The notes beneath the pieces were generated by a model. The model did no database searches and was not told the DNA's origin. It was given only the letters and a program-made list of their open reading frames with translations. Made by a program: the position numbers and the translations under genes. A stretch of DNA of 64,000 nucleotides from Candidatus Sulfurimonas marisnigri (lineage in GTDB: Bacteria; Campylobacterota; Campylobacteria; Campylobacterales; Sulfurimonadaceae), in contig NZ_CP054493.1 of the NCBI RefSeq assembly GCF_015265475.1, positions 2,418,001 through 2,482,000 on the forward strand, in the 5' to 3' direction. Positions 27,313 through 40,803 of the stretch are shown here, one piece after another (the first letter of the stretch is position 1; the number at the start of each line of letters is the position of its first letter).

Positions 27313-28419
27313 TTGAAATTAATCAAACTACTTTTAACTCTTGTACTTGCTCTTCAAACTCTAAGTGCAAGCCAGACAACAAATGATGATACAAAACTCA
27401 AAAAGATGATAGGAAGAATGCTTCTTATCGGATTCCCAAATGAAGATATAAATGAAAACAGTGAGATAGTAAGACAAATCAAGAGCTATGAACTTGGTGG
27501 TGTCATCCTTTTTGACCGTTTTTACAGCGACAGAAGTAAAACAAAAAACATAAGCTCACCTAAACAACTTCAACGCTTAACCTCAAAACTAAAATCTTTT
27601 TCAACTAAACCTCTTTTAATCTCTGTAGACCAGGAGGGTGGAAAAGTTGCACGTCTAAAACCAGCTTATGGCTTCAGCCAAACAGCCTCCGCAAAGCAAA
27701 TTTCTGCTCTACATGTAGAAGAGGCAAAAGCAATATATAAAGCTCAGGCTCAAATGCTTAAAAAGAGTGGAATCAACTGTGATTTTGCACCTGTTGTTGA
27801 CTTGGCAGTAAATCCTAAGAATATGGTTATTTACGGACTTGAACGCTCTTATGGAAGTGATTCTAAAGAGGTAGTAAAATACGCGAAAATATTTATGGAT
27901 TCACTTAAAAATGAGAATATTTTCAGTGTTTTAAAACATTTCCCTGGTCATGGTTCATCTCTTGGGGATTCACATAAAGGGTTTGTAAATATATCTAACA
28001 CATGGAGCGAAATCGAGTTAGAACCTTACAAAGAGCTGATAAAATCAAATGATATTTCTATGATAATGACAGCACATGTCTTTAATTCACAGCTTGACGC
28101 TAAATATCCTGCAACACTCTCATACAAGGTAAACACACAGCTTTTAAGAGAGAAGCTTGGCTATAGAGGTGTTTTAATCAGCGATGATTTGCAGATGAAA
28201 GCAGTCTCAAAACACTATTCATTAAAAGAGATAGTAGCTTTAGCCATTAACTCAGGAGTTGACATCTTGCTTTTTGGAAACCAGCTTGCTACTCAAGATG
28301 TTGATGAACTGATAGAAGTTATTTTATCTCAAGTAAAAAGCGGTGCAATCTCACAAAAAAGAATTTCAGAGTCGAACAAGAGAATTGAAGAGCTTCACAA
28401 AAAAAGAAAAAAACTATAA
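27313..28419 (+). CDS. nagZ: Exported glycoside hydrolase family 3 beta-N-acetylhexosaminidase (NagZ-like)
   Basis: NagZ removes GlcNAc from GlcNAc-anhydroMurNAc fragments of peptidoglycan. The family motif KHFPGHG (residues 208-214), the DSH acid/base loop (219-221) and the nucleophile region SDDLQM (290-295) are intact. Unlike the cytoplasmic enterobacterial enzyme, it opens with a clear signal peptide (MKLIKLLLTLVLALQTLSA) from a TTG start at 27313. The catalytic domain begins near residue 30 (LKKMIGRMLLIGF), so without the signal the enzyme would still be complete; the location is inferred. It overlaps the next gene by one base (TAATG). Confidence 0.85.
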   Translation: MKLIKLLLTLVLALQTLSASQTTNDDTKLKKMIGRMLLIGFPNEDINENSEIVRQIKSYELGGVILFDRFYSDRSKTKNISSPKQLQRLTSKLKSFSTKPLLISVDQEGGKVARLKPAYGFSQTASAKQISALHVEEAKAIYKAQAQMLKKSGINCDFAPVVDLAVNPKNMVIYGLERSYGSDSKEVVKYAKIFMDSLKNENIFSVLKHFPGHGSSLGDSHKGFVNISNTWSEIELEPYKELIKSNDISMIMTAHVFNSQLDAKYPATLSYKVNTQLLREKLGYRGVLISDDLQMKAVSKHYSLKEIVALAINSGVDILLFGNQLATQDVDELIEVILSQVKSGAISQKRISESNKRIEELHKKRKKL

Positions 28420-29882
28420 TGCAAAGTGCCTTCTCAATCCTTGACTGGCTGGTATTTGGCTCATACTTTTTACTTCTTGCCGTCACTTCCATAATTTTAA
28501 GCCGTACAAAAATAACCTCTTCGCGAGAGTACTTTTTAAGTCCCACTGCAATGCCAATGTTTGCTGTTGCCATCTCAGTTCTTGCGACCTCACAATCCGC
28601 TGCTACATTTTTAGGCGTTCCTGAATTCGCTTATGCTCATGACTTCACATTTATAGGCTTTTACTTCTCTGCACTGCTCGCTGTTATTTTTGTAGCATTT
28701 GTTTTGATTCCCAAATATTATGAGATGAAAGCAGTGACTGTTTATGAACTACTGCAAATACGTTACGGAGAGAGTGCAAAAAAACATGCTGGAGTAATGT
28801 TTCTAATTGGTCGAGTATTGGCGAGCGGAGCAAGACTTTACATCGGTGCACTCGCTATCTCCATGATTCTATTTGGTGACATCATTTTCTTACATGTAGC
28901 CATTTCTATTTTAGTTTTAATGTTTGGAGCACTCGCATACACCTACTTCGGCGGTGTACGCTCTGTAATACTTAGTGATATTATCCAAGCCGTTACTTAC
29001 GTCGGTGCCGGTGTGGCGGTTTTAGTGTTTCTTTACTATTCGCTGGAAAACATAGAGATATTCGCAACACTAAAAGAGCACAGTAAACTAAACTTTTTGG
29101 ATACAAGCATTGATGGAAAGTTTAGTCTTATAGGACTTTTAAGCGGTTGGTTATTACTCAACATTGCGGCATTCGGACTTGACCAGGATATGACCCAAAG
29201 AGTTCTTACATGTAAGAATAAAAACGAGGCTGCGAAATCTCTTATTGTCTCTATAGTTTTAACTATACCTATTGTTCTTCTTTTTTTAAGTATCGGCGCA
29301 CTTCTCTTTCTTTTTTACCTGCAAAGCGATGTTACGCAGAATTTTGAGGGTGAGAAAATCACCATTTTTATGTACTATATTTTAAATGAGATGCCTGAGG
29401 GTCTGCGAGGATTGGTTACTGTTGGAGCAATTGCTGCAGCACTCTCAAGCACTAACTCAGTTCTAGGGGCTATGGCTTCAGTTGCAGTTGAGGATCTATA
29501 TAAGCCGTGGAAGTTAAAGCAGGGCAAAATAGATAAGTACCATTTTGTTAAGGCATCCAGAGTTGCGGTACTCCTCTTCGCTTTGCTACTCTCTATAATG
29601 GCAATGGTTAGTTACTTCTGGCAACACTACAGCGACCTATCTCTAATTAGCTTCGCACTCGGTGTTATGGCGTTTGCATACACTGGACTTTTAGGTGTCT
29701 ACTTCTCGGCAATCTTTACCTCCCGCGGAAATGAGAAAACTGTTCTTTGGGCACTTGTTGGCGGATTTATTACCGTATTGGCACTTCAGCCATACACTTT
29801 TGGAGTCAGCATCGGCTTCTCGTGGCAGATAGTTATTGGGACTTTGGTTTCGTTTATCATCATGCAGAGTGCAAAGAGATAA
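28419..29882 (+). CDS. Sodium:solute symporter family transporter
   Basis: A 487-residue inner-membrane protein of the SSS family with about 13 hydrophobic segments. Family features include SREYFLSPTAMPMFAVAIS, ATSQSAATFLGVPEFA, and YTYFGGVRSVILSDIIQA. The substrate is not predictable from sequence alone. Translational coupling to the exported NagZ and its place directly before anmK-amgK-murU suggest it imports anhydro-MurNAc, MurNAc or a short muropeptide, the role AmpG plays elsewhere. That role is inference. Confidence 0.85.
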   Translation: MQSAFSILDWLVFGSYFLLLAVTSIILSRTKITSSREYFLSPTAMPMFAVAISVLATSQSAATFLGVPEFAYAHDFTFIGFYFSALLAVIFVAFVLIPKYYEMKAVTVYELLQIRYGESAKKHAGVMFLIGRVLASGARLYIGALAISMILFGDIIFLHVAISILVLMFGALAYTYFGGVRSVILSDIIQAVTYVGAGVAVLVFLYYSLENIEIFATLKEHSKLNFLDTSIDGKFSLIGLLSGWLLLNIAAFGLDQDMTQRVLTCKNKNEAAKSLIVSIVLTIPIVLLFLSIGALLFLFYLQSDVTQNFEGEKITIFMYYILNEMPEGLRGLVTVGAIAAALSSTNSVLGAMASVAVEDLYKPWKLKQGKIDKYHFVKASRVAVLLFALLLSIMAMVSYFWQHYSDLSLISFALGVMAFAYTGLLGVYFSAIFTSRGNEKTVLWALVGGFITVLALQPYTFGVSIGFSWQIVIGTLVSFIIMQSAKR

Positions 29883-29898
29883 AATTATTGATTTTGGA

Positions 29899-29904
29899 TA
29901 TAAT
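29899..29904 (+). promoter_or_regulatory. putative internal promoter before anmK
   Basis: ATTTTGGATATAATTTAATC, in the 56-bp gap after the symporter gene, matches the TTTGG-TATAAT style seen at secG. It would give anmK-amgK-murU a transcript of their own in addition to read-through. Confidence 0.5.
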
Positions 29905-29938
29905 TTAATCTTTTAGAAAAACTCAAAGGTTGTTGAAA

Positions 29939-31024
29939 ATGGGTGAATTATATATTGGTGTAATGTCAGGAACATCTCTTGACGGTGTTGATGTAGTTTT
30001 ATGTAAAATAGACTCTCAATCTTGTGAACTTGTATTTTCGTGCGAATACCCCTTTGATGATGATTTAAAAGAGGATATTTTAAGTGCTATTAGCACAACC
30101 ACCACTTTAAAAGCCATAGGTGAGATTGACACCCGTTTGGGCAAACTTTATGCCAACCACATTTCTGCCTTTATGAATCACTATAAAATCAACCAAAAAG
30201 ATGTCAGAGCTATTGGTCTTCACGGTCAAACGCTTTGGCATGAGCCAAATAGCGAGTATCCTTTTTCTATGCAGCTTGGAAATGCCAGCGTTATAACAGC
30301 ACAAACAGGTGTTAGTGTTGTTAGTGATTTTAGACAAAAAGATATAGCACTCGGCGGTCAAGGCGCACCTTTTGCACCTGTCTTTCACCAAGAGATATTT
30401 TCCAATCTAAACAGCAAAACTGCCGTTTTAAACATTGGAGGGATGGCAAATATAAGCATCTTAGGTGAGAAGCTTATAGGGTATGACACTGGGTGCGGAA
30501 ATGTTCTTTTGGACTACTGGATTTTTAAAAACCACAATAAAGTTTATGACAAAGACGGAGAGTGGGCAGAGTCCGGACATGTAAGCGCGGAACTCCTTGA
30601 CTCAATGCTAAGTGAGCCGTACTTCAAAAAAGAGGCTCCTAAAAGCTGTGGTCGTGAACTATTTAATGCAAAGTGGCTTGAGAAACATTTAGAAAATTTC
30701 TCACATGTGATTACCGAAGATGTTCAAGCAACACTTTTGGAGCTAACTGCAGTGACTATAGCAAACGAGGTGAAAAAAACCTCAACAGAGCTACTTATAG
30801 TTTGTGGAGGAGGTGCGAGAAACGGTGCACTTATGAAAAAGCTACATGTAGAACTAAAAGAGATTAATGTAACACTAAGTGATAAACATGGTGTTAGTAG
30901 TGAGTTTATGGAAGCGATGGCGTTTGCGTGGCTTGCTTACAAACGTATTCACAAAGAAGAAGTTGCACTCTCATCGGTTACCGGTGCTTCAAGAGACTCT
31001 ATTTTGGGGTGTATATATGAATAA
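29939..31024 (+). CDS. anmK: Anhydro-N-acetylmuramic acid kinase
   Basis: AnmK hydrolyses the 1,6-anhydro bond of anhMurNAc and phosphorylates it to MurNAc-6-phosphate in the cytoplasm. The N-terminal phosphate-binding motif GVMSGTSLDGVD, the DFRQKDIALGGQGAPFAP segment and the late CGGGARN are diagnostic. ATG at 29939 is chosen over an in-frame TTG at 29930 because AAAGG lies just upstream. It is 361 residues and overlaps the amgK start by 8 bp. Confidence 0.95.
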   Translation: MGELYIGVMSGTSLDGVDVVLCKIDSQSCELVFSCEYPFDDDLKEDILSAISTTTTLKAIGEIDTRLGKLYANHISAFMNHYKINQKDVRAIGLHGQTLWHEPNSEYPFSMQLGNASVITAQTGVSVVSDFRQKDIALGGQGAPFAPVFHQEIFSNLNSKTAVLNIGGMANISILGEKLIGYDTGCGNVLLDYWIFKNHNKVYDKDGEWAESGHVSAELLDSMLSEPYFKKEAPKSCGRELFNAKWLEKHLENFSHVITEDVQATLLELTAVTIANEVKKTSTELLIVCGGGARNGALMKKLHVELKEINVTLSDKHGVSSEFMEAMAFAWLAYKRIHKEEVALSSVTGASRDSILGCIYE

Positions 31025-31955
31025 CATAAAAAAGTGGCTCTCTACTACAAAATACAAAAATCATAAGCTTGAGATTGCTTCTGCAGATGCAAGTTTTAGA
31101 AAATACTACAGACTTAGTAAAGATGGAGAGAGTGTACTTTTAATGGATTCATCACTTGAAAAAGAGTCCTTAAAACCTTTTTTAGATGTAACCCAGAGAC
31201 TTCTACATGTAGAGGTTAACGCACCAAAGATTTTAGAGAAAAATTTGGAGGATGGTTATTTAATAATTAAAGATTTTTCAAACACACATTATCTCAATGT
31301 GCTTAACCAAGAGAACTTCAAAACTCTTTACTCAGATGCCATTGACACCATTATAACAATGCAAAAAGCAGATACTTCCGGGCTGCCGATTTACGACAAA
31401 GCTTTTCTACATGCAGAGATGGATTTGATGCAAGATTGGTACTTACAAAAACTTCTACATGTAGAGTTGGACGCACCTCAAAAAGAGCTTATAAAAACCA
31501 CTCTGGATGCTATTTCAGACGTTGTGCTTGAACAGCCTCAAGAGATGTTTGTACACCGCGATTTTCACTCAAGAAATATAATGATTACAGATGATAAAAA
31601 AATCGGAGTGATTGACTATCAGGATGCTATGAGCGGCGCTGTTACCTACGACTTGGTCTCACTTTTAAAAGATTGCTACATAGCCTATGGGAGAGAAGAG
31701 ATAGAGAGATTAGCACTAAAGTTTCGAGATAAAAAAAATCTGCACATAGATGATGAAACATTTATAAAATGGTTTGATTTTATGGGTCTGCAAAGACATA
31801 TAAAAGTGTTAGGAATATTTTCGCGCCTATACCTTCGTGATACCAAAGACGGCTACCTAAAAGATATTCCACTTACACTAAAATATGTTATAGAGACGGC
31901 AGGCAGATACAGCCAAACCAAAGAGTTGGCAGAGTTTTTAAAAGGTGTTTCATGA
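31017..31955 (+). CDS. amgK: N-acetylmuramate/N-acetylglucosamine kinase AmgK
   Basis: AmgK phosphorylates the anomeric hydroxyl of MurNAc (or GlcNAc) to give the 1-phosphate. It has the aminoglycoside-phosphotransferase fold: SADASFRKYYRL at the N terminus, catalytic HRDFHSRN at residues 180-187, and metal-binding IDYQD at 199-203. The start at 31017 (312 residues) fits the family and overlaps anmK. The next gene, murU, supplies the partner step, which strongly supports AmgK over a generic phosphotransferase. Confidence 0.9.
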   Translation: MNNIKKWLSTTKYKNHKLEIASADASFRKYYRLSKDGESVLLMDSSLEKESLKPFLDVTQRLLHVEVNAPKILEKNLEDGYLIIKDFSNTHYLNVLNQENFKTLYSDAIDTIITMQKADTSGLPIYDKAFLHAEMDLMQDWYLQKLLHVELDAPQKELIKTTLDAISDVVLEQPQEMFVHRDFHSRNIMITDDKKIGVIDYQDAMSGAVTYDLVSLLKDCYIAYGREEIERLALKFRDKKNLHIDDETFIKWFDFMGLQRHIKVLGIFSRLYLRDTKDGYLKDIPLTLKYVIETAGRYSQTKELAEFLKGVS

Positions 31956-32611
31956 AAGCAATGATTTTAGCGGCTGGACGCGGTGAGAGGATGAGACCGC
32001 TTACCGACCATATTCCCAAGCCACTGCTTGAGATTCACGGCAAGCCACTTATTATCTGGCATATAGAAAAACTCGCCTCTTTGGAGTTTAACGAAATCAT
32101 AATAAATATCGCTCACTTAGGTTATAAGATACCGATGGCTCTGGGTGACGGCTCCAAATGGGGTGTTAAACTAATATATTCTAATGAGCAAAAAGAGGGA
32201 GCACTAGAGAGTGCAGGCGGTATTATAAAAGCCCTTCCACTACTTGGAGAAGGTACTTTTTTGGTAGTAAATGGAGATATCTGGTGTGATTATGAGTTTG
32301 ATTCCAGTTTTGATTTGGGAGATGATTTAGCTCATCTGATTTTAGTTCCAAACCCAAAACATAATCAAAATGGTGATTTTACCTTAGACAATAGAAGAGT
32401 TTTCAACGATGGTGAAAATAAGCTTACTTTCTCTGGAATTGGCTACTATAGCCCGAAACTTTTTATTGGTTTGACAAGTGAAAAAAAGGCCTTAGCCCCC
32501 ATACTGCGTATGGCTATTGAAAAAGATAGAGTTAGCGGTTCCCTGCACAAAAGCAGATGGTATGATATTGGAACGCCGCAAAGACTTAATAACATAAACA
32601 ACGATATTTAA
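31952..32611 (+). CDS. murU: N-acetylmuramate-1-phosphate uridylyltransferase MurU
   Basis: MurU converts MurNAc-1-phosphate and UTP to UDP-MurNAc, feeding recycled muramic acid straight into wall synthesis and bypassing fosfomycin-sensitive MurA. The nucleotidyltransferase signature MILAAGRGERMRPLT is at the N terminus, then IPKPLLEIHGKPLI and, near residue 103, VVNGDIWCD. The length of 219 residues is typical. It overlaps amgK by 4 bp (ATGA). Confidence 0.92.
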   Translation: MKAMILAAGRGERMRPLTDHIPKPLLEIHGKPLIIWHIEKLASLEFNEIIINIAHLGYKIPMALGDGSKWGVKLIYSNEQKEGALESAGGIIKALPLLGEGTFLVVNGDIWCDYEFDSSFDLGDDLAHLILVPNPKHNQNGDFTLDNRRVFNDGENKLTFSGIGYYSPKLFIGLTSEKKALAPILRMAIEKDRVSGSLHKSRWYDIGTPQRLNNINNDI

Positions 32612-32684
32612 TGAACTATACAGACAAGGCGATGTACAATGTCTTCAAAAGCAGACAATCAACTTATTATATAAAGTATAAACA

Positions 32685-34190
32685 ATGACAATTAAACAGA
32701 TTATTTTTCGTATTGCAGCAATTTTACTTGTTGTAGAAGCCATCATCATGCTAGTCCTTGAATTTATGGAATTAGATTTGGATTGGATATCAGAAGCGTG
32801 TGTTGATGCACTCTCTTTAACTATATTTGCAACGCCAATTATATACAAATGGGTTATAAAGCCATTTGTGTTAATGAGAGAAACAGCAGAGAACCGAGTA
32901 ACTTATTTGGCATATCACGATGAGTTGACATCCCTTGCAAACAGAGCAAAACTTTTGGAGTGGCTTGATCACAGTATTAAAACATCTCATGGGAAAAATA
33001 ATATTTCTCTAATATTATTGGAATTAGACCGTTTTAAAGATATACAAGATACCTTTGGTCATGCAATTGTGGATGATCTTATTGTAAACATTGCAGAAAA
33101 ACTAAAGTGCAACATAAGCGGTGTAGACCTATTTGCTAAAATAGATACCTATATGCTTGCCTTTGTTGCAGAAAATACTCTCTCAGATGATGACATATAC
33201 TTAAAATCAAAACAAATTATCAGCATTATACAAACGCCGATTCTCTGTAGTAATGGTCACACCTTTAACCTAGAGGCAAGTGCAGGGATAAGTAGATTTC
33301 CAAAAGATGCTGCAAACAAAACAGACCTGCTGAAATACGCTTACACAGCGATGAGACAAGCTAAAACAATTAGCAAAGATAAAATAAGTTTTTACACACA
33401 ATCTCTTACTGAGGTGTCGCAAAGACACCTTACTCTTGAAGAAGATCTTAGACATGCCGTTGAAAACAATGAGTTTTATCTGCTTTATCAGCCAAAGATT
33501 GATGCACTCACTAGTAAACTCGTTGGCGTGGAAGCTCTTATACGATGGCAACATCCACAAAATGGGCTTATAAACCCTATAGACTTTATTCCTTTGGCTG
33601 AAGAGACAGGGCTAATCATACCTATAGGCGAATGGGTTTTACAAGAAGCACTCAAGCAGCAGGAGATATGGCAAAAAGATGGCAAAGAGCCAATTGTTAT
33701 GTCTATAAACCTATCTGGCAGACAGCTGCAAGTAGAGCACATAGACCAGATAATAAGAGTCTTACACTTGACACCAATACCTAAGAAATACATAGATTTT
33801 GAAATAACAGAGACATTTTTGATGGAAGATTCTTTTTTATCGCAAATGCTTCTTGAAAAACTTCACTCCACTGGTGTATCATTATCGATGGATGATTTTG
33901 GCACCGGCTACTCTTCATTGGCATATCTAAAACGTTTCAAAGTAAATACGCTTAAGATTGACAGAGCACTTATAAAAGATATAGAAGAGGATAAAAATGA
34001 TTTTGCTATTGCCAAGGCAATTATCGCTATGGGTCATACTCTGGAGATGAAGGTTGTGGCAGAGGGTGTTGAAACTGAAGAACAAGCAAGAATGCTTAAA
34101 CAGATAAGCTGTGACTATATTCAAGGATTTTACTATTCAAAACCAGTTTACCCTTATAGTGTATACTCTAACGATAACTACACATGCTAA
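32685..34190 (+). CDS. EAL-domain cyclic-di-GMP phosphodiesterase with degenerate GGDEF domain
   Basis: The protein has two membrane segments (about residues 7-27 and 42-58), then a GGDEF-type domain starting YLAYHDELTSLANRA, then an EAL domain. Where GGDEF should be, the sequence reads FAKIDTYMLAF, so the cyclase signature is lost. The EAL domain keeps GVEALIRWQHP, DDFGTGYSSLAYLK and EGVETEEQ, so c-di-GMP hydrolysis is expected. It lies 73 bp after murU and 9 bp before the lytic transglycosylase gene, suggesting c-di-GMP input to wall turnover; that link is inferred. Confidence 0.88.
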   Translation: MTIKQIIFRIAAILLVVEAIIMLVLEFMELDLDWISEACVDALSLTIFATPIIYKWVIKPFVLMRETAENRVTYLAYHDELTSLANRAKLLEWLDHSIKTSHGKNNISLILLELDRFKDIQDTFGHAIVDDLIVNIAEKLKCNISGVDLFAKIDTYMLAFVAENTLSDDDIYLKSKQIISIIQTPILCSNGHTFNLEASAGISRFPKDAANKTDLLKYAYTAMRQAKTISKDKISFYTQSLTEVSQRHLTLEEDLRHAVENNEFYLLYQPKIDALTSKLVGVEALIRWQHPQNGLINPIDFIPLAEETGLIIPIGEWVLQEALKQQEIWQKDGKEPIVMSINLSGRQLQVEHIDQIIRVLHLTPIPKKYIDFEITETFLMEDSFLSQMLLEKLHSTGVSLSMDDFGTGYSSLAYLKRFKVNTLKIDRALIKDIEEDKNDFAIAKAIIAMGHTLEMKVVAEGVETEEQARMLKQISCDYIQGFYYSKPVYPYSVYSNDNYTC

Positions 34191-34199
34191 GGCTACACA

Positions 34200-35174
34200 A
34201 TGTTAAAATCCATACTGATACTATCTTTAAGCACTCTGCTTTTTGCTAAATATACAAACTGCGAGTTTCAAAACAAAGACTATATAGATGTCTGTAAAAA
34301 AGTTGTAAAAAACGGTGTCTCATATAAGTATGCAAATAAATTTCTGCTCTCATATTTTAAGACAAAAAAGTTTGATGAGATAAGCTATAAGTATCTGCAG
34401 CCAAAATATATTAAAACTCATAAAAAAAATGAAAAAAAAGCTAACAATGTTTTAGTAAAATATGTACCTGATATGATTGAGCATCTCAATAAATACTCTG
34501 AAGTTTATGACTATTCTGAGAAAAAATATGGTGTAAACCGTGAGGTTATAGCTGCTATTTTAATAAAAGAGACCAGACTGGGTAAGATTAAACCAACACA
34601 TGATGCATTTATAGTATTTAACACTTTAGTGGTGCGTACAAAGCCAAATACAAAGCGTGAAAAATGGCTCATAAACATGGGCAAGACAAATATGGTATCT
34701 ATAATCACCCACTGTTATAAAAAAGGTGTGACACCAGAGGGATGCAATCTACCTAGCTCATACGCTGGAGCTGTTGGAATACCGCAGTTTATGCCAAATA
34801 GCTTTATATATGCAGATGGCTACAAAAGTAAAGTTCCTGATTTGACAAAAATGGAAGATGCCATAATGTCTGCGAGTAAATTTTTAAATAAAAAAGCCAA
34901 TTTCTTCAAGCTGATAGATTGGGATATTATGCCTGATATTGAAGATATAGAATCTCAGTGGTATGAGTATGAGTTCAATAATGACAATGCTTCATTTGTT
35001 TATGAGAAAAGCACAAAGTCTGGAAAAAAATATGACTGCTTCGCATGTGGAAAAGATGAGCTTGCATACCTTAAAGAGTATACAAAAAAAATTATGCGCT
35101 ACAACAACTCTTCAAACTATGCCGTTGGGGTAATGCGTTTGGCTTATGATTCGCACAAAGGCCTTAGTAAATAG
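34200..35174 (+). CDS. MltB-family lytic murein transglycosylase
   Basis: An exported transglycosylase of the SLT_2/MltB family that cleaves glycan strands to 1,6-anhydroMurNAc ends. A signal peptide covers residues 1-16 (MLKSILILSLSTLLFA). The catalytic glutamate is in AAILIKETRLGK, and SSYAGAVGIPQFMPNSF is the family signature. The 324-residue length fits. As last gene of the nagZ-to-murU run it would generate exactly the anhydro-fragments that NagZ, AnmK, AmgK and MurU recycle. Its 3' end overlaps the convergent mutarotase gene. Confidence 0.88.
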   Translation: MLKSILILSLSTLLFAKYTNCEFQNKDYIDVCKKVVKNGVSYKYANKFLLSYFKTKKFDEISYKYLQPKYIKTHKKNEKKANNVLVKYVPDMIEHLNKYSEVYDYSEKKYGVNREVIAAILIKETRLGKIKPTHDAFIVFNTLVVRTKPNTKREKWLINMGKTNMVSIITHCYKKGVTPEGCNLPSSYAGAVGIPQFMPNSFIYADGYKSKVPDLTKMEDAIMSASKFLNKKANFFKLIDWDIMPDIEDIESQWYEYEFNNDNASFVYEKSTKSGKKYDCFACGKDELAYLKEYTKKIMRYNNSSNYAVGVMRLAYDSHKGLSK

Positions 35175-36012
35175 TAGCCTTAAGGGTGAGTGATTCATTT
35201 GATTTTATCACTCTCTCATCTTCAAATGCATTAGCAGACTCTATGCAGAGCATGCTCTTGTAAGCATCATCTCTCATAGCACTCATTCTTTTGCATTTAG
35301 CTATCCATGGATTCCAAACTACAACAGAGCAAGAGCCTTCATTCTCTACATGTAGGATTCTATTTTTATCTTTTAACAAAACTTCATCTGAGACTTCTTG
35401 ATAAACTCTATCTACCTCTTGGTTAAAAGTTATATCTCCGCTTTGAATCTCTTTTTTAAATGTAAGGGCATCCAAATAAGGCTTTTTATCTAAACCGCGA
35501 ATAGCTACATGTAGAATGTCTGATACACTAAAGTAGGTGTGAAGGGCTTGAGTTATCTCAAAAGATTTTTCATCAATATTTGTGGTTTTTAACTCCATAG
35601 TCAGTCTATCTGAAATGCTTACATGTAACTCTAGTTCAAACTTATATGGCCACAATTTTAATGACTCTTTAGAGTATTCAAGTTTTAGAGTTATCAAAGT
35701 TATATCAGCACTGCGCTCGTCTGTATTGGCAACTCCCCAAATGGAGGTTCTTGCAAAGCCGTGCTGAGGCAAACTATCATCTTTGTTCAACCCAAACCAT
35801 GGCCAACAAATTGGAACTCCGCCACGAATTGATTTTCCTATCTCAAAATCGCTCGTCTCACTCAACCAAAGTATAGGCTCTTTTGAGTTTTGTTCGTAAT
35901 GAAAAATATGTGCGCCCTGAAGTGCTATTTTTGCATAAGCCAAACTATTTTTAATTTCAATATACTCAAAGCCGTTGGAGAGTTTTTTGTACTCAATCAA
36001 TGCATTTTCCAA
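35164..36012 (-). CDS. D-hexose-6-phosphate mutarotase (YeaD-like aldose epimerase)
   Basis: The 282-residue protein matches the YeaD branch of the aldose 1-epimerase family: IRGGVPICWPWFG, PQHGFARTSIW with the catalytic histidine, and ITQALHTYFSVSDI. Members interconvert anomers of phosphorylated or free hexoses. It overlaps the upstream transporter gene by 16 bp, so its sugar is probably the transporter's sugar. Confidence 0.8.
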   Translation of the reverse strand: MENALIEYKKLSNGFEYIEIKNSLAYAKIALQGAHIFHYEQNSKEPILWLSETSDFEIGKSIRGGVPICWPWFGLNKDDSLPQHGFARTSIWGVANTDERSADITLITLKLEYSKESLKLWPYKFELELHVSISDRLTMELKTTNIDEKSFEITQALHTYFSVSDILHVAIRGLDKKPYLDALTFKKEIQSGDITFNQEVDRVYQEVSDEVLLKDKNRILHVENEGSCSVVVWNPWIAKCKRMSAMRDDAYKSMLCIESANAFEDERVIKSNESLTLKATIY

Positions 36013-37265
36013 GATGTGATTTTATGCCACTTCATTGCGTATGCCAAAATGAAAGAGTAGCAAATTATCCCTATCAGGTATGTTGATTGCATATCTCCGC
36101 TCATATATGAAATTTTTCCAAATATAAGAGGCAAAATTGCTCCCCCTGCAATTGCCATAATCAAAAGAGCACTCCCCTGAGCTGTATATTTTCCCAAACC
36201 CTCAAGTGCCAGCGGCCAGATTGTAGGCCAAACAAGGGCGTTTGCAAAACCTAAAAGTGCTACAAATGTAACAGTGTCCGGCAGTGTTCTTATACCGCTC
36301 CATCCCCACAATATCTCTGAAACCAAACTGCTCTGCGCCGATGAATACACAACGCCAAAGAGAAATAAAATACCAAAGAGTGCAGAACCGATAAGTGCTT
36401 TTTCCTGCGAAAGATATTTAGGTATAAAAGCTACCCCTATAAGGTAGCCAAATACCATAAAAGTCATAGTGTATGAAGTTAGGGAGGTGAAGTTTTTCAG
36501 ACCTAAAAACTGCCCGTAAAGCCCGATGGTATCCCCAGCTATAACCTCAATACCAACATAAAAGAAAAGTGCAGTTGCTCCCAAAACCACACGTGGAAAC
36601 TGAAATATACTGCTCTTGTCTGAGTGTTCATCTTTTTCAAACTCAATCTCTGGAAGTGATGAGTATTTAACTAAAGCAATAAGCCCTGTCAAAACAGCTG
36701 CCATAATAATATATGGAACAATAAGACGTGAAGAGAGAGACTCTTTTGTTTCGTTTGAAAGATTCTCTAACGAGCCTATATCTGAGAGTACAATAGCGGT
36801 AAAAAGAAGAGGAACTATAACCCCTGCGCTTTTATTTATAAGTCCCATTATACTTATTCTCATTGCAGCACTCTCTATAGGTCCTACTAAAACTATATAT
36901 GGATTTGATGCTGTTTGCAGTATTGTAAGTCCGGTTCCCAGTGTAAAAAGAGCAACCAAAAAAAGTGTGAAACTTGCACTCTGCGCTGCAGGTATAAATA
37001 TAAGAGAGCCGACAACCATAACGCCTAAACCTGTTGCCATTCCATCTTTATAGCCGGTTTTATCAAGCACAAAGGACATCGGAAGAGCCATAACAGTATA
37101 AGCGATGTAAAAAGCAAAAGTCACAAAGAGTGCCTGAAACTCATTGAGATCACAAATGACTTTTAAAAACGGGATTAGTGAACCGTTTAGCCAAGTTACA
37201 AAACCGAAAATAAAAAATAAAATCCCTATAATCACCATAGGTATAAGAGTTGATTTGTTATCCAT
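35997..37265 (-). CDS. FucP-family sugar transporter (MFS)
   Basis: A 422-residue major-facilitator protein with about 12 membrane segments. FIFGFVTWLNGSLIPFLKVICDL at the start and LGTGLTILQTASNPYI near residue 108 are typical of the FucP/GluP/NagP group, which imports fucose, glucose, galactose or GlcNAc. It is embedded between a hexose mutarotase and a Cof-type phosphatase. With an exported NagZ across the way, GlcNAc is an attractive substrate, but glucose or galactose fit equally. Confidence 0.85.
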   Translation of the reverse strand: MDNKSTLIPMVIIGILFFIFGFVTWLNGSLIPFLKVICDLNEFQALFVTFAFYIAYTVMALPMSFVLDKTGYKDGMATGLGVMVVGSLIFIPAAQSASFTLFLVALFTLGTGLTILQTASNPYIVLVGPIESAAMRISIMGLINKSAGVIVPLLFTAIVLSDIGSLENLSNETKESLSSRLIVPYIIMAAVLTGLIALVKYSSLPEIEFEKDEHSDKSSIFQFPRVVLGATALFFYVGIEVIAGDTIGLYGQFLGLKNFTSLTSYTMTFMVFGYLIGVAFIPKYLSQEKALIGSALFGILFLFGVVYSSAQSSLVSEILWGWSGIRTLPDTVTFVALLGFANALVWPTIWPLALEGLGKYTAQGSALLIMAIAGGAILPLIFGKISYMSGDMQSTYLIGIICYSFILAYAMKWHKITSWKMH

Positions 37266-38085
37266 TTTTAAGCCCTTTTAAATAGTTTGCAACTGCATCT
37301 TCATCATTTGTATGCTGTAGTACAATATCTGCCAATTTTTTAACACCCTCTTGTGCATTTGCAACTGCTACAGAGACTCCAGCTAATTCAAACATTCCTA
37401 CATCATTGAAGTTATCCCCAAAAACGGTTAATTTTTTTAAGTCAAAACCGCTGTATTGGCTAACAGTTCGAATACCGTGAGACTTATCTGCGTCTTTATG
37501 CAATATAGTTAAAAAATAGCAACCCACATAAGCTTCTGGTGCGAGGATATATTTTAAATTATTGCCAAAAATAGCTTCTACATGTAGAGCCAATTTTCGC
37601 AACAGTTTTTCCTCACCCATATAAACAATCTTAAAGTTATCATCCATTGCACGTATATCTTTGTGCTCAACTAAATTGTCATCTTCTGAGTAGCGGGTGA
37701 GAACTTTTTTTTGGTGTTCGTTTAAAATAGCAGAGTATAAAAAAGCTTCGTTTAATTTCTTGTCTGCAAGAGCTAAGACAAAAGGGTAGATACCAAACTT
37801 AGCACCTTCGTCTATAATGGCATCTCCTACCTCTTTGTTTATAAACTTTGTATCTATTATCTTCTTATCCATTGTTGCAATAAGAGCACCATCAAGGAGA
37901 ATCATCGGGGAATTAACTTGTACATTCTTTAAAAATTGTGCTGTTTTTTTATATGTTCTTGCTGTTGCTACGCTAACAATTGAGTGTGCAGAGAAGCCAT
38001 TCCAAATCTCTTTTGTAAAAGTACTTACAGAGAGGTCATTTCTTAAAAATGTGTGATCGAGATCTGTTATATATATTTTTTTCAT
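37258..38085 (-). CDS. Cof-type HAD family sugar phosphatase
   Basis: A 275-residue HAD hydrolase: DLDHTF at the start (first catalytic aspartate), SVATARTYK (motif II), and TVFGDNFNDVGMFELAG (motif IV), the Cof/type IIB layout. Substrates are usually sugar phosphates. The start at 38085 is preferred because the alternative at 38109 lies inside the upstream antiporter gene. In this context it could dephosphorylate a sugar phosphate, including possibly MurNAc-6-phosphate, a step otherwise unassigned here. Confidence 0.78.
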   Translation of the reverse strand: MKKIYITDLDHTFLRNDLSVSTFTKEIWNGFSAHSIVSVATARTYKKTAQFLKNVQVNSPMILLDGALIATMDKKIIDTKFINKEVGDAIIDEGAKFGIYPFVLALADKKLNEAFLYSAILNEHQKKVLTRYSEDDNLVEHKDIRAMDDNFKIVYMGEEKLLRKLALHVEAIFGNNLKYILAPEAYVGCYFLTILHKDADKSHGIRTVSQYSGFDLKKLTVFGDNFNDVGMFELAGVSVAVANAQEGVKKLADIVLQHTNDEDAVANYLKGLKNG

Positions 38086-38090
38086 ATTCT

Positions 38091-39710
38091 CTAGTACTTC
38101 AATTTGCATTCGGCCATTCTCTCAACCAGTATTCGACCTATCTCTTCTTTACTGTCAATAACAGATGTAATATCCAAATCTTTTAGATTGTTTTTATCTC
38201 TTAGAGTTGATACCTTTACTATTAAATTAATATTTTTTGTATGAGCAAGAATTGTCTCGCAGATTGCTCTTTTTTTATCCATATTATCTAGGGTTACTAT
38301 CACTCCGGCCGAACTCTCGGCATGGATAGCTTCCAAAAGAGACAACTTGGACATATCACCCAAATATGCTTCTTTTCCTTCTGCTAAAGCCTCTTGAACA
38401 TGTTTTGGGTTATTGTCTATAATTACATAAGGCGCATCTATATTATCTAAAGATTTTGCTGCGAACTTACCTACAATACTGTATCCACACAAAATCACAT
38501 GGTTTTTCCTTGAAAGAAAGTCGGAAGTATCTAATCCCAGATATTCAAAGTGTGTAAAGTGTCTTACTAGCATGTTGATTTTAGAGATAAAAAATGGAGT
38601 GACAATCATAGAGAAAATAACCACTAGAATAAAGAGTGACTCCAACTCTTTGTCTAAAAGGCCACCCATGCTCGCAACTGCAAATATTACAAAAGAGAAC
38701 TCTCCAACTTGAGATAGTGCTAAAGCAGTTTTAAGTGATAATACATGCGAAGATGTTATACGAAGTAAAAGATATATAATAATGGCTTTTAAAACTAACA
38801 CCAGCAGAAAAATACCTATAATTATTCCAATGTTGTCTATAAAGTATAGTACATCTATCTTCATACCAACAATGATAAAAAATGTACCTAAAAGGATATC
38901 TTTGAACGGAGCAATATCTGATTCAACCTTATGATGATACTTAGTTTCTGCAATTACCATACCGGCAACAAAAGCACCAAGAGAGTATGTGAAGCCCATA
39001 TATGATGCAAAAAGAGAAGCGGCAACTACAATAAATAAAACTGAACCCATAAAAAGTTCATCAACTTCACTTGAAGCAGAGAAGTGCAGCAACCATGCAA
39101 TAACCCTTTTACCTACAACAAACAAAAGCACCATAACGATAACAGCACTTATAAAAGTGTCTCTTAAAATCACTCCAACCGATTGGTCACCCTCGCTTGT
39201 TAGAAAACTCAGAAAAATCAAAATAGGAATAACTGCAATATCTTGAAAAATAAGTATCCCTGCTGCGCGCTGGCCATAAGGATTATGTATCTCTTTTGAA
39301 CTTTTAAGGTAGCTCAAAACAACCGCAGTAGAGGAGAGTGCGAAAGCTAGGGAGAGTATAATGGCTGACATTGAGTCAAGTGAAAAAATATAGTGGCTGA
39401 CAGCATAAACAACTAAAGCAGTGAAACTCACTTGTAAGAAGCCGTTAAAGAATATCTCTGTTTTCATACTGTTCATTTTACGCAGAGATATCTCAAGACC
39501 GATAGTAAACATCAGAAACACTATACCAAACTCACCAATATACTCTAAAGTGTGCGAACCATTAATGTCTCTTAAGTCAAAAGCATAGACCAGAATTGTA
39601 CCGGTTATGATATAACCTATAATCTGTGAAACACCCATGTGTTTTAAAAAGAGGTTTAAAACCGTTGAGACACCCAGAGCCATAACAATATAAAGAAGTG
39701 CAGAATCCAT
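38091..39710 (-). CDS. Monovalent cation:proton antiporter with TrkA-N domain (KefB-like)
   Basis: The first 380 residues form a CPA2-type antiporter with about 12 membrane segments (EFGIVFLMFTIGLEISLRK, then LSLAFALSSTAVVLS). A Rossmann RCK/TrkA-N domain begins at HVILCGYSIVGKFAAKSL. Such proteins expel K+ or Na+ in exchange for protons under nucleotide or redox control. At 539 residues it is complete. It is the first gene of the minus-strand run, overlapping no neighbour. Confidence 0.88.
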   Translation of the reverse strand: MDSALLYIVMALGVSTVLNLFLKHMGVSQIIGYIITGTILVYAFDLRDINGSHTLEYIGEFGIVFLMFTIGLEISLRKMNSMKTEIFFNGFLQVSFTALVVYAVSHYIFSLDSMSAIILSLAFALSSTAVVLSYLKSSKEIHNPYGQRAAGILIFQDIAVIPILIFLSFLTSEGDQSVGVILRDTFISAVIVMVLLFVVGKRVIAWLLHFSASSEVDELFMGSVLFIVVAASLFASYMGFTYSLGAFVAGMVIAETKYHHKVESDIAPFKDILLGTFFIIVGMKIDVLYFIDNIGIIIGIFLLVLVLKAIIIYLLLRITSSHVLSLKTALALSQVGEFSFVIFAVASMGGLLDKELESLFILVVIFSMIVTPFFISKINMLVRHFTHFEYLGLDTSDFLSRKNHVILCGYSIVGKFAAKSLDNIDAPYVIIDNNPKHVQEALAEGKEAYLGDMSKLSLLEAIHAESSAGVIVTLDNMDKKRAICETILAHTKNINLIVKVSTLRDKNNLKDLDITSVIDSKEEIGRILVERMAECKLKY

Positions 39711-40095: not shown

Positions 40096-40803
40096 ATGAA
40101 AAAATCTATTAATAAATATTTATATACTTTAATTCTATTATCAACAAATCTTTTAGCAATGGGTGGACCGCATATAGGTTTAACTGCCGGCGCTGGCAGT
40201 AGTGATAATGGCCAAATTTGTGTTTATTGCCATACGCCTCACGCCGCAAATGACTTTGCAAGCCAAGTTACAGTTCCGCTTTGGAATAAGCCAGTTACAA
40301 ATGTTTCTTTTAAAATGTATGGTGCTAGTGTTAGGGGTGTTCCAGGTGTTACAATGGCAGGAACTCCTACAGATGCGACACCAACTGACACCTCTTTAGC
40401 TTGTCTTAGTTGTCACGATGGGGTCACTGCTATGAACAGTGCTGTAAATGCTCCCGGCTCTGGAGGTATCAATCCAATTGGTTCTCTTATTGGCTCTCCA
40501 ACACCTGTATGGATGGGTGTTAATGATGTTAAAGCGGTTGGTGCCAATTATACAACTAAAGAATCTGGTGATTTAACTGATGACCACCCAATATCAGTAG
40601 TTTATACACCAGGCAGGGCAGGTTTAAGACCTACAGAGACGGCTCTTGATAATTTTGTAGGTGCTGAAACCGTTTCTGATTTGCTAAGGGATGGAAAAGT
40701 TCAATGTTCTAGTTGCCATGATCCTCATGAATATAGTAATGGGATATATCTAAGAAAATTTAATGGAGGCAGTAGCCTTTGTCTTGGTTGCCATAACAAG
40801 TAA
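40096..40803 (+). CDS. Exported tetraheme c-type cytochrome
   Basis: The 235-residue protein has a signal peptide ending near LLAMG and four CxxCH heme sites: CVYCH, CLSCH, CSSCH and CLGCH. Additional histidines in HTPHAA, DDHPISV and HDPHE are likely distal ligands, a layout of doubled-CxxCH domain cytochromes. It should work in periplasmic electron transfer; partners are not encoded next to it. AGGGGAG provides a good ribosome-binding site. Confidence 0.85.
   Translation: MKKSINKYLYTLILLSTNLLAMGGPHIGLTAGAGSSDNGQICVYCHTPHAANDFASQVTVPLWNKPVTNVSFKMYGASVRGVPGVTMAGTPTDATPTDTSLACLSCHDGVTAMNSAVNAPGSGGINPIGSLIGSPTPVWMGVNDVKAVGANYTTKESGDLTDDHPISVVYTPGRAGLRPTETALDNFVGAETVSDLLRDGKVQCSSCHDPHEYSNGIYLRKFNGGSSLCLGCHNK

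Follow-up and report, generated by a model that had tools for sequence, protein, structure and literature searches.

How might a Gram-negative bacterium with no match to AmpG recycle its cell wall? In textbook Gram-negative recycling, AmpG imports whole muropeptides and these are cut in the cytoplasm. Candidatus Sulfurimonas marisnigri (GCF_015265475.1; single contig NZ_CP054493.1, 2,488,728 bases) raises this question through seven open reading frames (ORFs), all on the + strand, at positions 27313–35174 of a 64,000-nucleotide stretch of its genome (contig positions 2,418,001–2,482,000; hereafter the window). A first-pass annotation made from the letters alone had named them nagZ, a symporter gene, anmK, amgK, murU, an EAL-protein gene and mltB, and comparison with Pfam and NCBIfam models upheld all seven genes and, by homology, their names (Table 1). 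Unusual here, and overlooked by that annotation, are a NagZ and an amidase that both look exported, together with the absence of any match to AmpG. No description of such a module was found in the open-licence literature searched, and Sulfurimonas was not mentioned among the matches listed.

We propose that muropeptides are dismantled in the periplasm, that anhydro-N-acetylmuramic acid (anhydro-MurNAc) is imported by the symporter and that it is rebuilt to uridine diphosphate (UDP)-MurNAc, a scheme that we hold to be somewhat probable. MltB-type and other lytic transglycosylases would free N-acetylglucosamine (GlcNAc)–anhydro-MurNAc–peptides, from which exported NagZ would cut off GlcNAc. The peptide would be stripped by an AmpD-type amidase, likewise exported, which some genomes encode as a fusion with NagZ and the source genome as a separate protein; anhydro-MurNAc would be left. 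The sodium:solute symporter (SSS), replacing AmpG, would bring this sugar in with Na+. AnmK would convert it to MurNAc-6-phosphate (MurNAc-6P), which a phosphatase would turn into MurNAc; the likely enzyme for this step is a HAD-IIB protein encoded in a convergent operon. AmgK and then MurU would produce MurNAc-1-phosphate and UDP-MurNAc. The released GlcNAc would be taken up by NagP; AmgK also accepts GlcNAc, and together with GlmU it could restore UDP-GlcNAc. We infer that the sugars derive from the cell's own wall.

Co-occurrence ties the central genes together. In our main sample of 200 Campylobacterota genomes, MurU scored above cut-off in nine and AnmK was found in exactly those nine (the module genomes). 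These nine were also the genomes with a symporter at least 60% identical to that of the source, the next best symporter elsewhere reaching 29%. Seven module genomes belong to one genus, G191 to another genus of the family and G139 to another family. Within the genus, 71 of 100 genomes had AnmK; among the 61 with a completeness of 90% or more, 48 had it. Fisher tests (for example, amidase, p 1.4e-10) ignore the membership of seven of the nine genomes in one genus and were not relied on. The survey was confined to Campylobacterota; of the 19 loci from one contig scan, 15 carried the name Sulfurimonas or Helicobacteraceae. Two Vibrio loci (L064 and L066; SIS domains in L064), in which a cytoplasmic-type nagZ and a murQ-looking gene lie beside anmK, were set aside as a different arrangement.

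The gene-order survey that the first-pass annotation had proposed was run on 48 other loci. The order is not unique to this genome, the outcome which that annotation had named as its refutation: nagZ–SSS–anmK–amgK–murU–mltB was complete in 38 loci, and anmK lay beside amgK in all 48. Because the six core genes keep their order in so many loci, the grouping is not a matter of chance. Four of the ten exceptions (L194, L196, L197 and L198) were cut off by contig ends; in G139 nagZ is located elsewhere and mltB is not in the stretch, G191 and G268 also have no mltB in the stretch, and in G278 neither murU nor mltB was seen over 8 kb. The module occupies two genomic settings, beside pyrE, as in the source genome, or elsewhere. 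The genes had been described as contiguous and overlapping; the distances between them limit this to nagZ–SSS (−1 bp) and anmK–amgK–murU (−8 and −4 bp), with gaps of 56, 73 and 9 bp at SSS/anmK, murU/EAL and EAL/mltB. The GGDEF–EAL gene, earlier taken as a cyclic di-GMP hydrolase belonging to the unit, was rejected as a member, since just 3 of the 48 loci have a GGDEF/EAL match (89, 36 and 30% identity) in the interval from murU to mltB. Nor is the cluster self-contained, as none of its seven genes encodes the MurNAc-6P phosphatase or the amidase. What stands is a murein turnover and anabolic MurNAc salvage cluster with its own transporter and a conserved order; the observation itself is confirmed and its earlier interpretation, overall, partly supported.

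The placement of the first cuts outside the cytoplasm comes from predicted leaders. By a hydropathy-based rule (mean hydropathy of at least 2.0 over ten residues near the start), export-like leaders were predicted on 43 of 45 NagZ proteins with complete starts from module-bearing genomes, including that of the source. The two leaderless proteins are encoded in two Sulfurimonas genomes (G281 and G201; L168:6385-7413 and L175:11912-12940). Of the same 45 proteins, 24 have at least 540 residues, and the extra part was Amidase_2 in all four long NagZ scanned with Pfam (L043, L047, L048 and L061); the L047 fusion, for example, spans L047:4012-5694. With tblastn, an amidase was also placed after nagZ in some of the loci. 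In each of the eight genomes tested that have a short NagZ (the source, G000, and G126, G186, G139, G201, G281, G265 and G279), the amidase has a gene of its own and shows an export-like leader; it adjoins a DUF819 membrane protein in seven and the symporter in G139. G009, G037, G129 and G143 have the fused copy only, and G191 has a second Amidase_2 gene. Amidase_2 was found in 9/9 module genomes versus 11/191 others, the sole such gene of the source genome lying outside the seven-gene cluster at G000:C1:2100526-2100879. Five residues, H60, E131, H170, K193 and D195, which we take to be the zinc and catalytic residues of AmpD-type enzymes, are invariant in 26 aligned amidases. In the fusions one leader would serve both activities. 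These fusions, together with the separate amidase in 8/8 non-fused genomes, suggest that both activities belong together, outside the cytoplasm. AmpG-type recycling has NagZ and AmpD in the cytoplasm; in the source genome leaders are predicted on both NagZ and the amidase.

NagZ with an export-like leader is not restricted to the module. All 14 NagZ proteins fetched from Campylobacterota without AnmK (L090–L108; 61 such genomes have a GH3 protein) passed the leader rule, which suggests that exported NagZ is common in the phylum, and periplasmic NagZ may be general in Campylobacterota. The source amidase gene is part of a tight operon (G000:C1:2098261-2101071; L140:2762-5572) that also encodes the DUF819 membrane protein and a member of the enolase family whose nearest relatives are L-Ala-D/L-Glu epimerases. 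This operon is a candidate for murein-peptide salvage, in which DUF819 might carry the peptide. Relatives of the three genes are likewise clustered in G145, G074 and G060, all without AnmK.

Model searches ruled out AmpG, or MurQ above its cut-off, in the module genomes. AmpG (TIGR00901) had no match in any of the nine, source included, G201 and G281 being outside this search; across the 200 genomes it scored above cut-off in none and gave weaker matches in 23, and in a control set it scored above cut-off in 2 of 14 genomes. A review describes AmpG as sporadic in Epsilonproteobacteria (PMC11382707). MurQ was above cut-off in none of the 200 genomes, with weak matches in 197, the best at 41.2 bits against a cut-off of 302.

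The symporter has the SSF family fold, as confirmed by PF00474 and by structure matching. Its nearest solved protein is the sialic acid transporter SiaT (5nv9, 2e-37). An AlphaFold model built from 41 sequences (predicted local distance difference test score (pLDDT) 85.0, predicted template modelling score (pTM) 0.86) had SiaT as its best fold match (Foldseek, 1.7e-19); VIA-align against 5nva gave Z 43.0 and a root-mean-square deviation of 2.6 over 458 aligned residues, the next family, NIS, reaching 38.3. Anhydro-MurNAc bears a carboxylate. Given this carboxylate and the kinship to SiaT, which carries an acidic amino sugar, the symporter may plausibly take a sugar of this kind, perhaps anhydro-MurNAc. 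SiaT grips the sialic acid carboxylate through Ser60, Thr63 and Arg135 (PMC5931594). Ser60 and Thr63 are kept in the symporter; Ser60 may be conserved widely across the SSS family, so that its match says little alone. SiaT Arg135 could not be equated with an arginine of the symporter, as the alignment gives Ala135. Two arginines flank that position on the same helix, Arg132 at a distance of three residues and Arg139 at four, and both are invariant in 45 aligned sequences.

Table 1 Features of the cluster and of the convergent operon, in window coordinates
Feature	Position	Strand	Evidence
nagZ, GH3 beta-N-acetylglucosaminidase	27313–28419	+	PF00933 1e-67; start codon TTG; N-terminus with an export-like leader
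SSS (SSF) sodium:solute symporter, proposed anhydro-MurNAc importer	28419–29882	+	PF00474 3.7e-28
anmK, anhydro-MurNAc kinase	29939–31024	+	PF03702 4.3e-139
amgK, anomeric MurNAc/GlcNAc kinase	31017–31955	+	Best NCBIfam match AmgK 1.5e-74, below cut-off; Pfam APH
murU, MurNAc-1-phosphate uridylyltransferase	31952–32611	+	NCBIfam MurU; Pfam NTP_transferase
GGDEF–EAL protein, local extra	32685–34190	+	Pfam GGDEF and EAL; GGDEF motif lost, EAL motif kept
mltB-like lytic transglycosylase (SLT_2), signal-like N-terminus	34200–35174	+	PF13406 8.4e-30; KETRLG motif
Hexose-6-phosphate mutarotase-like protein	35164–36012	−	PF01263 6.2e-43; PDB relatives include 2ciq, 1.1e-31
NagP-like MFS sugar carrier, putative importer of GlcNAc	35997–37265	−	NCBIfam NagP 506.3 bits
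HAD-IIB (Cof-type) phosphatase, candidate MurNAc-6P phosphatase	37258–38109	−	PF08282 5.1e-41

Among the cytoplasmic enzymes, AnmK (478.7 bits against 367 for one NCBIfam AnmK model) and MurU (293.7 against 250) passed their cut-offs. The motifs checked were present in NagZ (KHFPGHG, GDSH and SDDLQM), AnmK, AmgK (HRDFHSRN), MurU, MltB, the HAD protein and the amidase, with key residues, presumably catalytic, invariant among aligned orthologues. The amgK start most likely lies near 31017, inside a longer ORF listed from 30879. The mutarotase–NagP–HAD set (35164–38109) faces the module in G191 and, whichever of the two settings applies, in many other loci; in G139 the HAD gene alone faces it, in G129, G037 and G009 the set lies away from it, and in G143 nagP and the HAD gene do. 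The HAD-IIB gene is present in 9/9 module genomes at 49–100% identity. A canonical MupP was not found among the HAD_2 proteins scanned: of five HAD_2 matches in the source genome, three were compared with the MupP model and scored 87, 49 and 28 bits against a cut-off of 359, the two weaker matches being outside the scan. Context makes HAD-IIB the best candidate for the MurNAc-6P phosphatase, with about an even chance of being right, and the roles given to it and to NagP are putative.

Several findings weigh against the proposed scheme. The sialic-acid ligand set is not reproduced in the symporter, in which Arg135 is replaced by an invariant Ala and Gln82 by Tyr. Upstream of the leaderless NagZ in both G201 and G281 the reading frame is closed by stops, and the remaining module is present. 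The leader rule itself is imperfect, because one of three Vibrio cytoplasmic-type NagZ (1.6, 1.6 and 2.0) reached its threshold. Few independent co-occurrence events are represented, because seven of the nine module genomes are of one genus, and G224 (whose right end is also cut) and G256 carry anmK–amgK–murU with no nagZ or SSS in the fetched stretch. Some NCBIfam scores fell below cut-off: AmgK, the top match of the fourth gene, whose kinase motif is intact (251.1 bits against 550), NagZ/PRK05337 (186.2 against 207), MltB (68 against 281.4) and NagP (against 625). HAD-IIB also occurs, at 38–49% identity, in 21 of 191 genomes without AnmK, which refutes its being specific to AnmK genomes. The search for known muropeptide importers was confined to AmpG. 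The last point bears on a different entry route, in which intact muropeptides would pass through a Yej- or Opp-type ATP-binding cassette (ABC) importer and the symporter would carry something else; SSS substrates are diverse, and YejBEF–YepA imports muropeptides in AmpG-less Alphaproteobacteria (PMC9790009). We judge this very improbable here, as the symporter is found in the same nine genomes as AnmK and MurU, its gene sits between nagZ and anmK, and NagZ looks exported. The G201 and G281 proteins raise another possibility, that the symporter imports the disaccharide GlcNAc–anhydro-MurNAc after periplasmic amidase action and that NagZ is wholly or partly cytoplasmic: their amidases have a leader, their NagZ do not, and their symporter shares about 59% identity with that of the source. 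Perhaps this lineage does import the disaccharide; as a general account it is unlikely, given the leader on nearly all other NagZ, the single leader of the fusions for both NagZ and amidase, and a NagP-like carrier that suggests free GlcNAc outside the membrane.

If import of anhydro-MurNAc is accepted, the source of the sugar and the dephosphorylating enzyme are still to be weighed. The machinery might mainly scavenge wall sugars shed by other bacteria; its patchy distribution, within the genus and across the phylum, resembles that of an accessory nutrient trait, and periplasmic digestion also fits outside fragments. Yet the cluster contains a lytic transglycosylase gene, and the route ends in the wall precursor UDP-MurNAc with no MurQ over cut-off to burn the sugar, which makes scavenging improbable as the main role. 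Far closer to balance, at a little under an even chance, is the alternative that HAD-IIB is a general sugar phosphatase and that another enzyme, such as the Gph-like protein of L136, acts on MurNAc-6P. None of the six AnmK-less HAD-IIB genomes read, of the 21, has nagP near that gene, and the L136 protein gave the best MupP score of the three HAD_2 proteins scanned; its score with the phosphoglycolate phosphatase model is higher (117 bits), however, and HAD-IIB occurs in every module genome, facing the module in many loci.

Described systems, compared here from excerpts of the cited papers, share parts of the proposed periplasmic route. The Pseudomonas AnmK–MupP–AmgK–MurU route (PMC5371407, PMC5371409) has AnmK, AmgK, MurU and the UDP-MurNAc end product in common with the Sulfurimonas module, in which no MurQ passes cut-off. 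There, however, AmpG imports whole muropeptides, NagZ and AmpD are cytoplasmic and MupP is a HAD_2 protein, whereas in Sulfurimonas AmpG has no match, both enzymes look exported and no scanned HAD_2 protein reaches the MupP cut-off. Bacillus subtilis, with its murQ-murR-murP-amiE-nagZ-ybbC rescue cluster (PMC5061867), resembles Sulfurimonas in having NagZ and an amidase outside the cytoplasm (predicted here) and a dedicated sugar importer; it uses the phosphotransferase importer MurP and MurQ catabolism, where the Gram-negative Sulfurimonas would import through a sodium symporter and feed the MurU route. Rhodothermus marinus (RmNag3, PMC6987092) likewise has a proposed periplasmic NagZ, no AmpG, and AnmK, but its NagZ carries a beta-lactamase domain rather than an amidase, and the available part of that report identifies no sugar importer. 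Tannerella forsythia MurT (PMC7670621), a MurNAc importer of Bacteroidetes, brings a free muramic sugar across the inner membrane, as is proposed for the symporter, and its gene belongs to a recycling cluster together with those for AmpG, MurK and MurQ. It has been described as a new transporter family, and that genome has no AnmK; the comparison with the symporter is by description. SiaT (5nv9/5nva, PMC5931594) remains the closest solved relative of the symporter by sequence and fold.

The first-pass annotation had called the AmgK–MurU genes scattered elsewhere. In pseudomonads, amgK and murU are also neighbours. Agrobacterium, an AmpG-less Gram-negative with AnmK, AmgK and MurU (PMC9790009), has these two genes adjacent as well (Atu0026/Atu0025), so that scattering holds there for AnmK (Atu1827) and MupP (Atu1614). 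It differs from Sulfurimonas in importing intact muropeptides through the ABC importer YejBEF–YepA and in having MupP; its AmpD and NagZ substrates accumulate in the cytoplasm.

Beyond the HAD gene, the convergent operon starts with what looks by eye like a Kef-type cation antiporter gene (window 38091–39710), which shares 19 bases with the HAD gene. Before pyrG, at 40096–40803, lies a gene whose product, small and exported, contains several CxxCH motifs and by eye resembles a multihaem cytochrome. Promoter-like sites showed no excess over shuffled sequence (40 versus 47.6) and terminator-like sites numbered 15 versus 8.3; neither was used for any claim.

In its fullest form the proposal is a complete AmpG-free Gram-negative recycling system, with a periplasmic exported NagZ and AmpD-type amidase (fused in some genomes), a new Na+-coupled family of anhydro-MurNAc symporters, HAD-IIB in place of MupP and peptide salvage by the amidase–DUF819–epimerase operon; that all these parts hold together is possible but rather doubtful. 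If true, an importer would be named for diderms with periplasmic NagZ and without AmpG, and the symporter and the HAD-IIB phosphatase would be two single proteins whose roles are open to direct in vitro test. Muropeptides would be kept from the cytoplasm, where other bacteria sense them.

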